Assembly: GCA_016866775.1 (NCBI GenBank)
Contig: VGLJ01000018.1
Span: 1-64,000, forward strand
Length of the DNA stretch: 64,000 nucleotides
Reading direction: 5' to 3'
Source: Candidatus Rokuibacteriota bacterium
GTDB lineage: Bacteria; Methylomirabilota; Methylomirabilia; Rokubacteriales; CSP1-6
This document shows positions 56,061 through 60,264 of the stretch, in pieces. The position numbers were made by a program, and so were the translations under genes. The notes under the pieces are model-generated. The model was given only the letters and a program-made list of their open reading frames with translations. It had not been told where the DNA came from and made no database searches. Numbering within the stretch: position 1 is the stretch's first letter; every line of letters begins with the position of its first letter.

Positions 56061-57497
56061 CTACTGCTGGCCGAGGCGGCGGACACAGTCGCGGAATTGC
56101 GCGCCGCGGTCCGCGTAGTCCTTGAAGAGCCCGCCGCGGCTCGGCGCGGCCGGCGAGTGCAGGCAGATGCTGCCCGAGGGCGTGAGCACGTAGGCCTCGC
56201 GCCCCGCCGTCTCCATGTCGGTCACGTCGATGTGGCGCGGGGCGGGCCGTGAGCGCGCCGCGGCTTCCTTCGTCACCGCTTCCCACAGGCGGGTGCCCGT
56301 CTCCGGGAACAGGATGAGCGTCGCCACGCGGTCGTCGAGCAGCCGGCGCGCGAGCGCGTCGTAGTCGACCCCCCGGTCCACGCCGCCGAGGATCACCGTC
56401 GACACGCGCGGCGCCAGCGCCGCGAGGTGGGCGATCGTCGCCTCCGGGACCGTCGCGATCGACGCGTTGTAGAACGTGATCCCGCGGAACGTGCCGACGT
56501 TCTCGAAGCGGTCGCGCAGCGGCTGGAAGCCGCGCAACCCGCGGATGATCACGTCGTTGTCGAGGGACAGGATGCGCGCCACGCCGACCGCCGGCAGCAC
56601 GTTGCGCAGGTTGAAGCGGCCGGGCAGCGCACGCGAGACCTCGGCGACGTCGACGATGTCCTCGCGCCCGAACGCCGCGGCGAAGACGATCCGGTAGTTC
56701 TCCTCGATGAACACGCCGCGCTCCACGGGCCCGTCGATGCGGCAGGGCATGAGCTGCGCGGGGCTGCGCTCGGCGACGGCGCTCGCCGTCGCCGAGAGCG
56801 CGTCGTAGACGAACCAGTCGCGCGTCCGCTGGTGCCGCGTGATGTTGGTCTTCGCGTCGAGGTACGCCTCGAAGCTCCCGTGGTGATCGAGGTGCTCGGG
56901 CACCACGTCGAGCATCACCGCGACGTCGGGGCTCCGGTCGAGACCCTCGAGCTGGAAGCTCGACAGCTCGTACACGAACAGCGCCTCGTCGCCGGCGCGG
57001 GTCAGCGCGAGCAGCGGCGAGACGCCGCCCAGGTCCGGCCCGATGTTGCCGACGAGATGCACCTCGCGCGCGTGCGCGGAGAGGATCGAGTGGATCAAGA
57101 CGCTCGTCGTGCTCTTGCCCTTCGTGCCGGTGACGCCGATCACGCGGTGGCGGCAGAGCGCGAAGAAGAGCGCGGTCTGCGACGTGAGCTCGGTGCCGCG
57201 CGCCTTCGCCTCCTGCAGCGCGCGCCCGCGCAGCGGAATCCCGGGCGAGCGGAACGCCACCTGGTACTCGCCGATGTGGCGCAGGTGATCGGCGCCGAGA
57301 TGCACGCGCACGTGCGGGTCGCCTTCGAGGAGCGCGCGGCCCTCGGCCGGCAGCTCGTCGAGCGCGAGCGTCTCCGCGACGGCGAGCTCCTTGTCGGGGA
57401 ACCGCGCGCGCAGGAAGCGGAAGACGTCGCGTCCTTCGACGCCGAGGCCCATGATGAGGACCGACTTCCGTTCGAGGCCGTCGAGCGGATCAGCCAC
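56061..57497 (-). CDS. murD2: Mur ligase family: UDP-MurNAc-L-Ala:L-Glu ligase (MurD2-like)
   Basis: 478 residues. N-terminal Rossmann-like domain (VLIMGLGVEGRDVFRFL), ATP site GVTGTKGKSTTS (121-132), ELSSFQLEGLDRSPDVAVMLDVVPEHLDHHGSFEAY, and FNLRNVLPAVGVA. It replaces the usual MurD DSKATN motif with YNASIATVP. Known: MurD2 of Xanthomonas adds L-Glu instead of D-Glu to UDP-MurNAc-L-Ala, followed by epimerisation by MurL, whose gene overlaps this one by 8 bp. L-Glu specificity is inferred from that neighbour. GTG 57497. Confidence 0.85.
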   Translation of the reverse strand: MADPLDGLERKSVLIMGLGVEGRDVFRFLRARFPDKELAVAETLALDELPAEGRALLEGDPHVRVHLGADHLRHIGEYQVAFRSPGIPLRGRALQEAKARGTELTSQTALFFALCRHRVIGVTGTKGKSTTSVLIHSILSAHAREVHLVGNIGPDLGGVSPLLALTRAGDEALFVYELSSFQLEGLDRSPDVAVMLDVVPEHLDHHGSFEAYLDAKTNITRHQRTRDWFVYDALSATASAVAERSPAQLMPCRIDGPVERGVFIEENYRIVFAAAFGREDIVDVAEVSRALPGRFNLRNVLPAVGVARILSLDNDVIIRGLRGFQPLRDRFENVGTFRGITFYNASIATVPEATIAHLAALAPRVSTVILGGVDRGVDYDALARRLLDDRVATLILFPETGTRLWEAVTKEAAARSRPAPRHIDVTDMETAGREAYVLTPSGSICLHSPAAPSRGGLFKDYADRGAQFRDCVRRLGQQ

Positions 57498-58881
57498 GCG
57501 GTCGGGACAGGCGCGCGCGGAGCGCGTCGGCGTACGCGGCAGGCACGCCGTGCCGATCGCTCCAGTCGTCGAGGATCCGGGCGGCGGTGACGGCGAGGTC
57601 GGGATGGCGCGGCGCGACGTCCTCGGCGAACCACGCGAGCACGGGCGGCAGCGGCCGGCCCGCGCCCGCGGCTTTCTCGCGGCTCAGGTGGAACGCGGCC
57701 AGCGTCTCGTCGATCGCGCCCACGCATTCGAGCGGGCGCGTCTCCGTGAGACCCACGAGCGCGCGCGCGAGCGGGACGAGATCGGCGCGCGCGAACAGGT
57801 CGGCGCCGAAGATCCCGCGGATCTCGGCGTCCGAGACGAACGGATAGAGCGCGGTGTAGATCGAGAGGCACTTCGCGCACTCGCCGCACCACGTGTTGGC
57901 TTTCGACCCCCGGTTGCAGCTCCGGAAGACCGGGAACTGCCGCGGAAACGCGCTGAAGAGCTTCACGACCTGCAGCTCGTACAGCGGGCGCAGGAGGCTC
58001 CAGAGGAGCACCTCGCGCGCGAGGTGACGCCGGAGGTAATCGGCCACCAGCGCCTCGAAGCGATACGTCTTCGAGTACTGGTGGATGACGTCCGCGCCGA
58101 GGTAGTGCGCCGCCGGCTCGTCGCAGCTCCGCTCGTTCGACACCACGACGTTGCGATGGCCGTAGACCACCGCGCACGCCGCGCCGAGGAACGCGAGGTA
58201 CGCCGAGAACGGCGTGTGGCCGTTCAGGTAGCCCGCCTTGTTCAGCGCGAGCATCGCCGGATCGAGCGTCCGCGCGACGATCAGAGACCTGGCGCAGCCC
58301 GCCACCCGCGCGACGTCGCGCGCGGCCGGCGCGGGGTTGAGGAAGAGCGCGCGCACCGCGTGGCCGCGCTCGCGCAGGAACTCGAGCGTGAACGCGGAGT
58401 CCTTGCCGCCGCTCACGAGCACGAGGTCCTCGGCGTCGGGCAACGCGGCGTCGAAGCGGGCGGTCGGCCGTCCGGCGCGCGGCGAGGTCACGAGCGTGAA
58501 CAGATCGTCGCGCCGGAAGTCGATCCCGTTGACGAAGAAGAACTCGCGCATCCCGTGGAGGACGAGGTCGCGCCACCACGCGACCTGCTCCGCGTCGAGC
58601 GCGCCCGCCTTGATGACGATCTCCGGCGCGCACGCGGTCTTCCAGTAGCTCAGGAGCTCGATCATCCCGAGGTGGAACGCGAGGTTGTCGAGGGCTTCGG
58701 CGGGCAGCGACGCGAGCCGCGTGGCGTCGGCGGCGTGCAGCGTGGTCGTCGGCGCGAACGCGACGTCCGGCGCCATCGTGAAGCTGAACGTGAGCGTCAG
58801 ATCCTCACCCCTGCGCTCGACCGCGTAGTCCTCGTACGTGAAGCGCGGGTGACGCGCGCGGAGATGCTCGAAGCGGCTCAC
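57490..58881 (-). CDS. murL: UDP-MurNAc-tripeptide glutamate epimerase MurL-like
   Basis: 463 residues. A PP-loop/HUP ATP-binding domain with LVLVSGGKDSAFTLEFL (SGGKDS at 157-162), RNVVVSNERSCDEPAAHYLGADVIHQYSKTYRFE, and a C-terminal Cys cluster WCGECAKC (332, 335, 338). Known: MurL uses ATP to adenylate and epimerise the terminal L-Glu of UDP-MurNAc-L-Ala-L-Glu. Its pairing with a MurD2-like gene is the recognised signature. GTG 58881 overlaps the DUF4392 stop (GTGA). Confidence 0.88.
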   Translation of the reverse strand: MSRFEHLRARHPRFTYEDYAVERRGEDLTLTFSFTMAPDVAFAPTTTLHAADATRLASLPAEALDNLAFHLGMIELLSYWKTACAPEIVIKAGALDAEQVAWWRDLVLHGMREFFFVNGIDFRRDDLFTLVTSPRAGRPTARFDAALPDAEDLVLVSGGKDSAFTLEFLRERGHAVRALFLNPAPAARDVARVAGCARSLIVARTLDPAMLALNKAGYLNGHTPFSAYLAFLGAACAVVYGHRNVVVSNERSCDEPAAHYLGADVIHQYSKTYRFEALVADYLRRHLAREVLLWSLLRPLYELQVVKLFSAFPRQFPVFRSCNRGSKANTWCGECAKCLSIYTALYPFVSDAEIRGIFGADLFARADLVPLARALVGLTETRPLECVGAIDETLAAFHLSREKAAGAGRPLPPVLAWFAEDVAPRHPDLAVTAARILDDWSDRHGVPAAYADALRARLSRPRG

Positions 58882-59711
58882 GCGACGAGCCTCCGCAGAT
58901 CCGTGAGGATCTCGGCGGTCACGGGCGGATCGAAGCCGTCCACTTTGCCGTCGGCCTCGCCCGTCGTGCCGTCGACCGCGCCGAGCGCCGCCGTGCGCTC
59001 GACGAGCCGCCGCTCGTCCTCGACCGTCGGCAGGAGATCGCGACCCGTCAACGCGGAGAGCGCCGCGACGAGCCCGTAGCCGCCCCAGTTCGACACGCTC
59101 GCGATGACGAGCCGGCTCACGGACGTCACGCACGGATCGCTGACGAGCTTGCCCGACGCCGCGACGGCGTCGGCCACGTTGCCCATGCCGATCTCGTTGC
59201 CACCGTCGCCGATGCCCACGCTCGGAATGATGCCTTCGAAGAGAAAATCGATCTGCGCGGTCTCGGCGGAGACGTCGAGGCCGCGCATGTTGAGATACCG
59301 GCCGTTCGCCGTGCGTCCGCACCGCTCGATCGAGATCAGGAGCGATGGCCGGTGACGGTCGAGCACCTCTTTCGCGAATCGCACGCTGGCCAGGGCGTCG
59401 GTGACCGGGAAGCCGATCACCTGGCCGGGAGCCGTGAGCCCTTGCATGAGGGGCTCGCACACCCGGTCGGTGACGTACAGCGGGCGCCAGCCGAGCCGCT
59501 CGAGGGCGTGTCCGATGGCCACCGCACCGGGGGGTCCGTCCGTCTCCGGGGTCCCGGTCCTCAGGATGTAGAACCCGGTGGTGATGAGGGCCACCCCGGG
59601 CGGGCCGGCCAGTAACTGCGCGGCCTGATGGCAGAAATCCTTCGGCAGGTGGGGGCGGAGGTCCGAGACCCCCCGCTTGTCGTGCCGGAGGACGACGTCT
59701 TCGATGGTCAC
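58878..59711 (-). CDS. DUF4392 / D-glutamate cyclase-like domain protein
   Basis: 277 residues. Seen: GVALITTGFYILRTGTPETDGPPGAVAIGHALERLGWRPLYVTD, SLLISIERCGRTANGRYLNMRG, and VGIGDGGNEIGMGNVADAV, the DUF4392 signature. Known: the homologous domain of mammalian DGLUCY is a D-glutamate cyclase converting D-Glu to 5-oxo-D-proline. First gene of a DUF4392-MurL-MurD2 unit; here it could remove free D-Glu or act on a related D-glutamyl group. GTG 59711 has no clear ribosome-binding site; a start further upstream is possible. Confidence 0.8.
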   Translation of the reverse strand: MTIEDVVLRHDKRGVSDLRPHLPKDFCHQAAQLLAGPPGVALITTGFYILRTGTPETDGPPGAVAIGHALERLGWRPLYVTDRVCEPLMQGLTAPGQVIGFPVTDALASVRFAKEVLDRHRPSLLISIERCGRTANGRYLNMRGLDVSAETAQIDFLFEGIIPSVGIGDGGNEIGMGNVADAVAASGKLVSDPCVTSVSRLVIASVSNWGGYGLVAALSALTGRDLLPTVEDERRLVERTAALGAVDGTTGEADGKVDGFDPPVTAEILTDLRRLVA

Positions 59712-59766
59712 GGGCCGAGGATATACCAGCCAGGCCCGAGAGCCCGCGTGGTCAGTTCGGCACAAC

Positions 59767-59928: not shown

Positions 59929-60264
59929 ATGGCGCACAAACTGTTCGTCGGTGGCTTGAACTTCGCGACTTCCAACGAGCGTCTGCGCGAGCTGTTCGCG
60001 GAGTGTGGGCAGGTCGAGTCGGCCACCGTGGTGACCGATCGCGACACGGGCCGTTCCCGTGGCTTCGGTTTCGTGGAGATGGGCTCGGCGGAGGAAGCCG
60101 AGCAGGCCATCTCCAAGTTCAATGGTCAGGAGATCGACGGTCGCCGTCTTCAGGTCGAGAAGGCCAAGGAAGGCGGCTCGGGTGGCGCGCGTCGGAGCGG
60201 CAGCTTCGGCGGCGGTTCTCGCGGCGGTTACGGAGGCGGAGGCGGCGGCTCGCGCCGCTGGTAA
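59929..60264 (+). CDS. RRM-type glycine-rich RNA-binding protein
   Basis: 111 residues: one RRM with RNP2 (KLFVGGLNF) and RNP1 (SRGFGFVEM), followed by a Gly/Arg/Ser tail of about 35 residues (GGSRGGYGGGGGG). Like cyanobacterial Rbp proteins, such tails bind single-stranded RNA and often respond to cold. AAAGGAGG lies 7 nt before ATG 59929. A cold-shock role is inferred. Confidence 0.93.
   Translation: MAHKLFVGGLNFATSNERLRELFAECGQVESATVVTDRDTGRSRGFGFVEMGSAEEAEQAISKFNGQEIDGRRLQVEKAKEGGSGGARRSGSFGGGSRGGYGGGGGGSRRW

Follow-up and report, generated by a model that had tools for sequence, protein, structure and literature searches.

How does a bacterium bring D-glutamate (D-Glu) into its cell wall when its canonical murD gene is decayed, and is a DUF4392 protein part of the answer? 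These questions are raised by three overlapping genes in the genome of Candidatus Rokuibacteriota bacterium (GCA_016866775.1). They lie in positions 1 to 64,000 of contig VGLJ01000018.1 (the window; contig C18 in our numbering), which belongs to a 5.13-Mb assembly of 159 contigs that is 97.5% complete. Two of the genes encode relatives of the peptidoglycan proteins MurL and MurD2, the third one a DUF4392 protein. An earlier sequence-only reading had combined them into a three-part unit of cell wall synthesis. Our analysis, which is computational throughout, favours another explanation that we regard as fairly probable: MurL and MurD2 are the working, probably the only, route in this genome, the pair was gained and the murD gene of the dcw cluster then decayed, and DUF4392 became coupled to them in this lineage alone.

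The three overlapping genes

The cluster consists of the following genes and diagnostic MurD2 sites.

58878..59711, minus strand: DUF4392 gene (PF14336, GLUCM-like_C), 277 amino acids, start codon GTG at 59711, first gene of the cluster
57490..58881, minus strand: MurL gene (NF041275), product with a predicted QatC/QueC-type PP-loop fold
56061..57497, minus strand: MurD2 (MurD-like) gene (TIGR01087)
57108..57128, minus strand: ATP loop GTKGKST of MurD2 (residues 124-130), intact in the alignment
56895..56897, minus strand: E201 of MurD2 (in PEHLD), corresponding to E197 in the X. oryzae enzyme, where E. coli MurD has Asp
56373..56375, minus strand: R375 of MurD2 (in GGVDRG), corresponding to R358 in the X. 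oryzae enzyme, where E. coli MurD has Lys

The coordinates bear out the overlaps reported earlier, which amount to 4 nt between DUF4392 and murL (58878-58881) and 8 nt between murL and murD2 (57490-57497). An alternative TTG start of the DUF4392 gene is found upstream of the GTG, at 59765. The name DUF4392 was right, with 243 bits against PF14336 (cut-off 27.9, E 4e-72). The MurD2 protein passes TIGR01087 with 268.8 bits (cut-off 212) and is 30-47% identical to seven MurDs encoded next to murL. The MurL protein scores 226.6 bits against NF041275 (E 4e-67), and no Pfam family matches it at E 0.001. It shares 30% identity with Xanthomonas MurL and 32-50% with 37 relatives.

According to the accessible part of the X. 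oryzae study, E197 and R358 were identified by mutation as the residues that set the L-Glu specificity of MurD2 (PMC8788868). Both are present in the window protein. The MurD encoded beside murL in X. sacchari has the equivalent Glu and Arg at positions 206 and 367, 161 positions apart like those of the X. oryzae protein. These two residues and the order of the pair, which recurs in 73 of the 80 loci described below, uphold the names MurL and MurD2 given earlier, and the identification of the pair is sound. Judged by sequence, the identities of all three genes are confirmed far beyond chance.

As far as the available parts of the published work go (PMC8788868, PMC5808125), the window pair resembles MurD2-MurL of X. 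oryzae (XOO_1320/XOO_1319) in pairing, gene order, overlap and specificity residues, and also in that no MurI exceeds the cut-off. It differs in that its phylum is outside the list given there, that a DUF4392 gene is coupled ahead of the pair and that a decayed murD is retained in the dcw cluster. The published pair was tested by complementing E. coli WM335, a D-Glu auxotroph (PMC8788868). No description of a DUF4392-MurL-MurD2 unit was found in the open-licence literature.

Distribution and gene order of MurL and MurD2

Genome contigs were scanned with an alignment of four MurL sequences. At least 569 relatives were confirmed, and the best 80 of them were analysed; their flanks are often short, and in 48 of the 80 at least 3 kb is available on each side. 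A murD gene directly follows murL on the same strand in 73 loci, in 63 of which the two genes touch or overlap. In a Bacteroidales metagenome-assembled genome (MAG) both are fused into one frame of 920 amino acids (L139, 951-3710). The contig edge is reached after murL in L100 and L103, murD lies 1.2 kb further downstream in L093 and on the other strand in L102, and no murD was seen in the fetched flanks of L086 and L149.

By their record labels and lineages, the best 80 relatives belong to at least eight phylum-level groups (Acidobacteriota, Pseudomonadota, Bipolaricaulota, Planctomycetota with Anammoxibacter, Patescibacteria or candidate phyla radiation (CPR), Bacteroidota, Campylobacterota and Bacillota), and most are MAGs. 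The accessible parts of the earlier reports name Gammaproteobacteria, Alphaproteobacteria and actinobacteria, as well as orthologues of low similarity in a fungus, cyanobacteria and an amoeba (PMC8788868, PMC5808125). There the pathway was proposed as a narrow-spectrum drug target, being thought to be confined to few genera (PMC8788868), and the range found here bears on that idea. Six CPR-labelled loci (L090, L093, L094, L095, L097, L116) show the order mraY-murL-murD2-ftsW-murG, the pair occupying the place of murD in the dcw cluster. L146 from Bacilli reads mraY-ftsW-murL-murD2-murG, and L100 breaks off after murL.

Only one of 95 genomes of the phylum, the window genome itself, encodes a MurL. 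In the MurL tree the window sequence groups with L081 from Acidobacteriota and L082/L084 from Pseudomonadota (support 97/92). Because of this isolated occurrence and the grouping with other phyla, horizontal transfer is the most likely origin of the pair. The viral contigs that were searched contained no MurL relative.

MurL-like genes without a MurD neighbour are found on Pseudonocardia plasmids (L043 5764-7173, L044 5764-7164, L045 5764-7158). They adjoin a gene of about 3.9 kb, which has a WD40 annotation in two of the three cases.

The canonical murD of the window genome

The only protein of the window genome above the TIGR01087 cut-off is the MurD2 of the window. At the place of the canonical gene the following frame is found.

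L040 9103-10113, contig C102: decayed murD, open frame of 336 amino acids, between mraY and ftsW in the dcw cluster

The frame is 34-40% identical to the MurDs of relatives (best E 8e-55). RsmH, FtsI, MurE, MurF, MraY, FtsW, MurC and MurB of the same cluster share about 68-86% identity with the same relatives, MraZ 45-50%. Among the relatives, five canonical MurDs of family f1 are 69-87% identical to that of L049. The MurE, MurF and MraY values for locus L181, whose contig starts within mraY, were set aside; the first two (31-35%) come from matches to other Mur ligases, and the MraY match covers 37 residues.

None of the hallmarks of a canonical MurD (GTNGKTTT loop, DHLDRH region, C-terminal domain) is retained: the ATP loop TGTNGKTTTT reads GARDVRAAV, the DHLDRH motif is lost and the C-terminal domain is gone. 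Out of 272 invariant columns 203 could be aligned, and 99 of these are kept. No Pfam family matches the frame at E 0.01. To judge from these losses, the dcw copy is catalytically dead, which answers the earlier question whether a canonical murD is missing in favour of the earlier reading. The codon positions still have a gene-like composition, with a GC content of 0.90 at third positions. The open frame was considered as proof of selection and rejected as such; in a neutral simulation of substitutions only, without insertions or deletions, it stayed open in 27 of 400 runs and is merely suggestive.

Supply of D-glutamate

Whether murI is missing had also been asked. No protein of the window genome exceeds the cut-off of TIGR00067 (MurI), so that this part of the earlier reading is supported; a tie to MurL is not, as none of the 95 genomes of the phylum has a MurI above the cut-off. 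MurI is likewise below in all 48 other genomes with MurL, while 8 of 14 controls pass. Because the whole phylum is negative, the absence of MurI says little, and the conclusion from missing MurI to MurL is weakened. D-amino-acid aminotransferase (TIGR01121) does not exceed its cut-off in any of the 95 genomes either, the nearest match being 262 bits in G043. MurD (TIGR01087), with the window MurD2 included, is above the cut-off in 92 of them. Most of the phylum therefore appears to have MurD without a D-Glu source recognised by TIGR00067 or TIGR01121. In Chlamydia D-Glu is supplied by DapF, and a divergent racemase could be the source in this phylum. The window genome encodes one amino-acid racemase that exceeds a family cut-off.

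L041 2985-3674, contig C13 of the window genome: amino-acid racemase of the asp_race type (TIGR00035), which may be a source of free D-amino acids

With both the ATP loop and the C-terminal domain of the dcw murD gone and no MurI above the cut-off, MurL and MurD2 are probably the only route of this genome.

The DUF4392 protein and its neighbours

The DUF4392 protein matches TON_0340 (4dwz) with E 2.5e-32. The six acids of the dimetal site (E56, D58, E129, D169, E173 and D258), whose columns were checked in 14 homologues, are all present, and by these residues the gene product is an intact dimetal enzyme. It has the six metal ligands in common with the Mn-dependent phosphatase TON_0340 (4DWZ, 5GL4), but the neighbourhood of the window gene is different. 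With the mammalian D-glutamate cyclase, which consists of DUF1445 and DUF4392, it shares the C-terminal DUF4392 domain. DUF1445 is absent from the window protein, for which Pfam gives PF14336 only; no search was made for DUF1445 in other genes.

The distribution speaks against counting DUF4392 as a third component of the pathway. In the fetched flanks it occurs near murL in one of the 80 loci only, L092 from Levybacteria, where it follows murD2 at a distance of about 0.6 kb and in the opposite orientation. It is present anywhere in 4 of the 48 MurL genomes. In the phylum of the window 66 of 95 genomes contain DUF4392, 65 of them without a MurL match. A three-part unit as a conserved system was rejected on these grounds: the neighbourhood is not conserved in relatives, and the unit named earlier is a lineage-specific junction. 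The other finding that would have spoken against the earlier proposal, a functional murI and murD elsewhere in the genome, was not made, with MurI below the cut-off and the dcw murD decayed.

Neighbours of DUF4392 were assigned by PF00202, PF01019, PF01968 and PF02538. A class-III aminotransferase is encoded directly downstream in 29 of 30 loci (L010-L039), which are the best-scoring matches and not a random set. The exception, L036 of genome G006, holds the nearest homologue of the window protein (53% identity), has no MurL and adjoins a HlyD-like gene. In the genomes of family f6 (G008-G014; L167, L186-L191) HyuB is upstream of DUF4392 in seven of seven cases, with HyuA as well where the piece reaches that far. 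The HyuA/HyuB pair comes nearest to caprolactamase in NCBIfam, far below the cut-off. Eleven further loci from other groups (L166, L192-L201) and five from MurL genomes (L173-L177) show neither of these contexts. By association, the neighbours suit an amino-acid or lactam chemistry, and hence D-Glu or 5-oxoproline, better than a phosphatase. A role of the protein in D-Glu disposal is possible.

Of the 57 genomes of family f1, 49 contain an orthologue of the aminotransferase beside DUF4392 (AMT3; at least 72% identity). Among the f1 genomes with DUF4392, that of the window alone lacks it, the best match having 53% identity. It may be speculated that AMT3 supplies D-Glu in the phylum and was lost here on the gain of MurL and MurD2. 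This is a weak idea, because G006 and G007, both listed as 100% complete, lack the AMT3 orthologue and keep a canonical MurD. AMT3 is below the HemL cut-offs (358 versus 398 and 336 versus 527), and none of three G059 paralogues passes TIGR00713; a HemL-type role of AMT3 is possible.

Weighing the explanations

The favoured explanation has three parts. The murL-murD2 pair would have been gained, most likely by horizontal transfer; the canonical dcw murD would then have decayed, leaving the pair as the working and probably sole route of D-Glu into the wall; and DUF4392, whose coupling to the pair is confined to this lineage, would most likely serve D-Glu or 5-oxoproline salvage and not a step of wall synthesis. 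Several observations weigh against it. The MurL score of 226.6 bits is below the cut-off of 700 of NF041275, a Xanthomonadales-specific model; the name MurL is applied here more broadly, on the basis of the pairing of murL with murD2. The assembly is incomplete, so that an unbinned murD or murI may exist. The racemase listed above scores 109.6 bits (cut-off 93.1), and two class-IV aminotransferase-like proteins match TIGR01121 with 137 and 135 bits (cut-off 277); because of these matches free D-Glu may be made in the window genome. The DUF4392 homologues with an informative context are less close (33-48% identity) than the one with 53%, which has neither context, and the 4-nt overlap is some sign that DUF4392 is co-expressed with the pair.

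The incomplete assembly and the racemase would also suit a silent or redundant import of murL and murD2, with the wall being made through another MurD and a D-Glu source missing from the assembly, and some MurL genomes do keep a second full MurD (e.g. G110, G120, G125, G119, G138). Such an import is improbable, as the dcw murD is decayed amid intact neighbours and both MurL and MurD2 retain their invariant residues. The earlier reading had seen in DUF4392 a dedicated partner of the pair that destroys free D-Glu from wall turnover, which could neither be reused, as MurD2 takes L-Glu, nor be racemised without MurI. The overlapping genes, the intact metal site, the lack of a MurI above the cut-off, the Levybacteria locus and the D-Glu cyclase activity of the mouse DUF1445-DUF4392 protein, as given in the available part of that report (PMC5339696), are in line with this. 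We nevertheless hold it to be unlikely, given the rarity of DUF4392 in MurL loci and genomes, its 65 carriers without MurL and a nearest homologue that sits beside a HlyD-like gene in a genome without MurL. Even less can be said for an Mn-dependent phosphatase like TON_0340 that clears the AMP made by MurL. The homology with all six ligands would allow it, MurL does make AMP (PMC8788868, accessible part), and AMP is the best substrate for the weak Mn-dependent activity of TON_0340 (kcat/KM 1.9e2 per M per s; PMC5132392). However, this activity is very low and its authors, in the part available, leave the natural substrate open (PMC5132392); most MurL genomes lack DUF4392, which is usually found beside aminotransferase, GGT and HyuA/HyuB genes. 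This role is very improbable.

A predicted PP-loop fold of MurL

Two by-products of the analysis look more novel than the three-gene unit, namely the predicted fold of MurL and a MurD fragment in Bacteroidota. MurL was described, in the parts of the reports at hand, as a protein without known domains that makes AMP (PMC5808125, PMC8788868). The AlphaFold2 model of the window protein is confident (mean pLDDT 95.4, pTM 0.93). A Foldseek search with it gave QatC (2.8e-5) and QueC (5.2e-5), followed by a sulfurtransferase, Cap9, argininosuccinate synthase and TtuA. VIA-align placed QatC first (Z 18.5; 333 residues, 4.1 A; residues 10-421 of the model), followed by QueC (13.9 over 202) and Cap9 (12.8 over 169); the next value was 9.8. 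Two groups of residues are of special interest.

58396..58413, minus strand: PP-loop motif SGGKDS of MurL (residues 157-162), with GG[KR]DS in 38 of 38 aligned MurLs
57868..57918, minus strand: C322, C332, C335 and C338 of MurL (SCN...WCGECAKC), invariant in 40 aligned MurLs

C386, H222, H267, K271, E250 and E276 are invariant in the 40 sequences as well, and C386 is one candidate for a proton-moving residue of MurL. The window protein has both the modelled PP-loop fold and the SGGxDS-type motif by which QueC/QatC PP-loop ATPases are recognised. Sequence support for this kinship is weak: the PADLOC QueC profile matches the window protein with E 7e-5 and 3 of 38 members in all, TtuA matches with E 1.5e-5, and the Pfam QueC match is below the cut-off. 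By its fold and motif, MurL is predicted to be a PP-loop enzyme of the QatC/QueC type. PP-loop enzymes adenylate their substrates and release pyrophosphate, and since MurL is predicted to have this fold, its use of ATP would be explained. The fold, the PP-loop motif and the four invariant cysteines are shared with QatC from the qatABCD defence system and QueC from 7-deazaguanine synthesis, but identity in the structural alignments is 12-17%, the substrates differ and a common fold is no proof of function. Placing MurL with these adenylating enzymes gives a testable mechanism for its ATP use, and the kinship with QatC links wall synthesis to an anti-phage defence protein. No description of the MurL fold was found in the open-licence literature.

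A MurD C-terminal fragment in Bacteroidota

The 48 other MurL genomes were scanned with TIGR01087. In three of them, all Bacteroidota (G113/L099, G122/L108, G128/L114), the interval between mraY and ftsW encodes no more of MurD than its C-terminal part.

L182 3938-4486, L183 6803-7351, L184 6495-7043 (-): gene for a MurD C-terminal domain of 182 amino acids, with PF02875 in all three

The NDSKATN and GGKDKG residues are altered in L183 and L184 and retained in L182. Between L183 and L184 the fragment has pN 0.120, pS 0.717 and a dN/dS of 0.056, with dS near saturation. Because six neighbouring frames span 0.024-0.105, which includes this value, the fragment is, by this measure, under purifying selection. 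The three genomes form one MurL clade (100/98) inside a group with L096, L106 and L111, whose genomes (G110, G120, G125) have a full second MurD of 394-406 bits. A single truncation, after which the fragment was retained, is therefore probable. This case parallels that of the window and is better supported; a MurD remnant or pseudoenzyme was not found described in the open-licence literature.

A tentative explanation, to which we give somewhat less than even chances, is that MurD serves a second purpose apart from ligation, bound up with the location of its gene between mraY and ftsW, and that parts of it are kept, although catalysis is lost, once MurD2 and MurL take over the chemistry. In the window genome these would be the N-terminal and central parts, in which the ATP loop is dead, and in the three Bacteroidota genomes a C-terminal domain of exactly 182 residues. 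If true, a conserved, catalytically dead fragment of MurD would allow a structural function of this classic drug target to be told apart from its enzymatic one.

As a minor observation from the window itself, a small RNA-recognition-motif protein (59929-60264, opposite strand) is encoded next upstream of the three-gene cluster.

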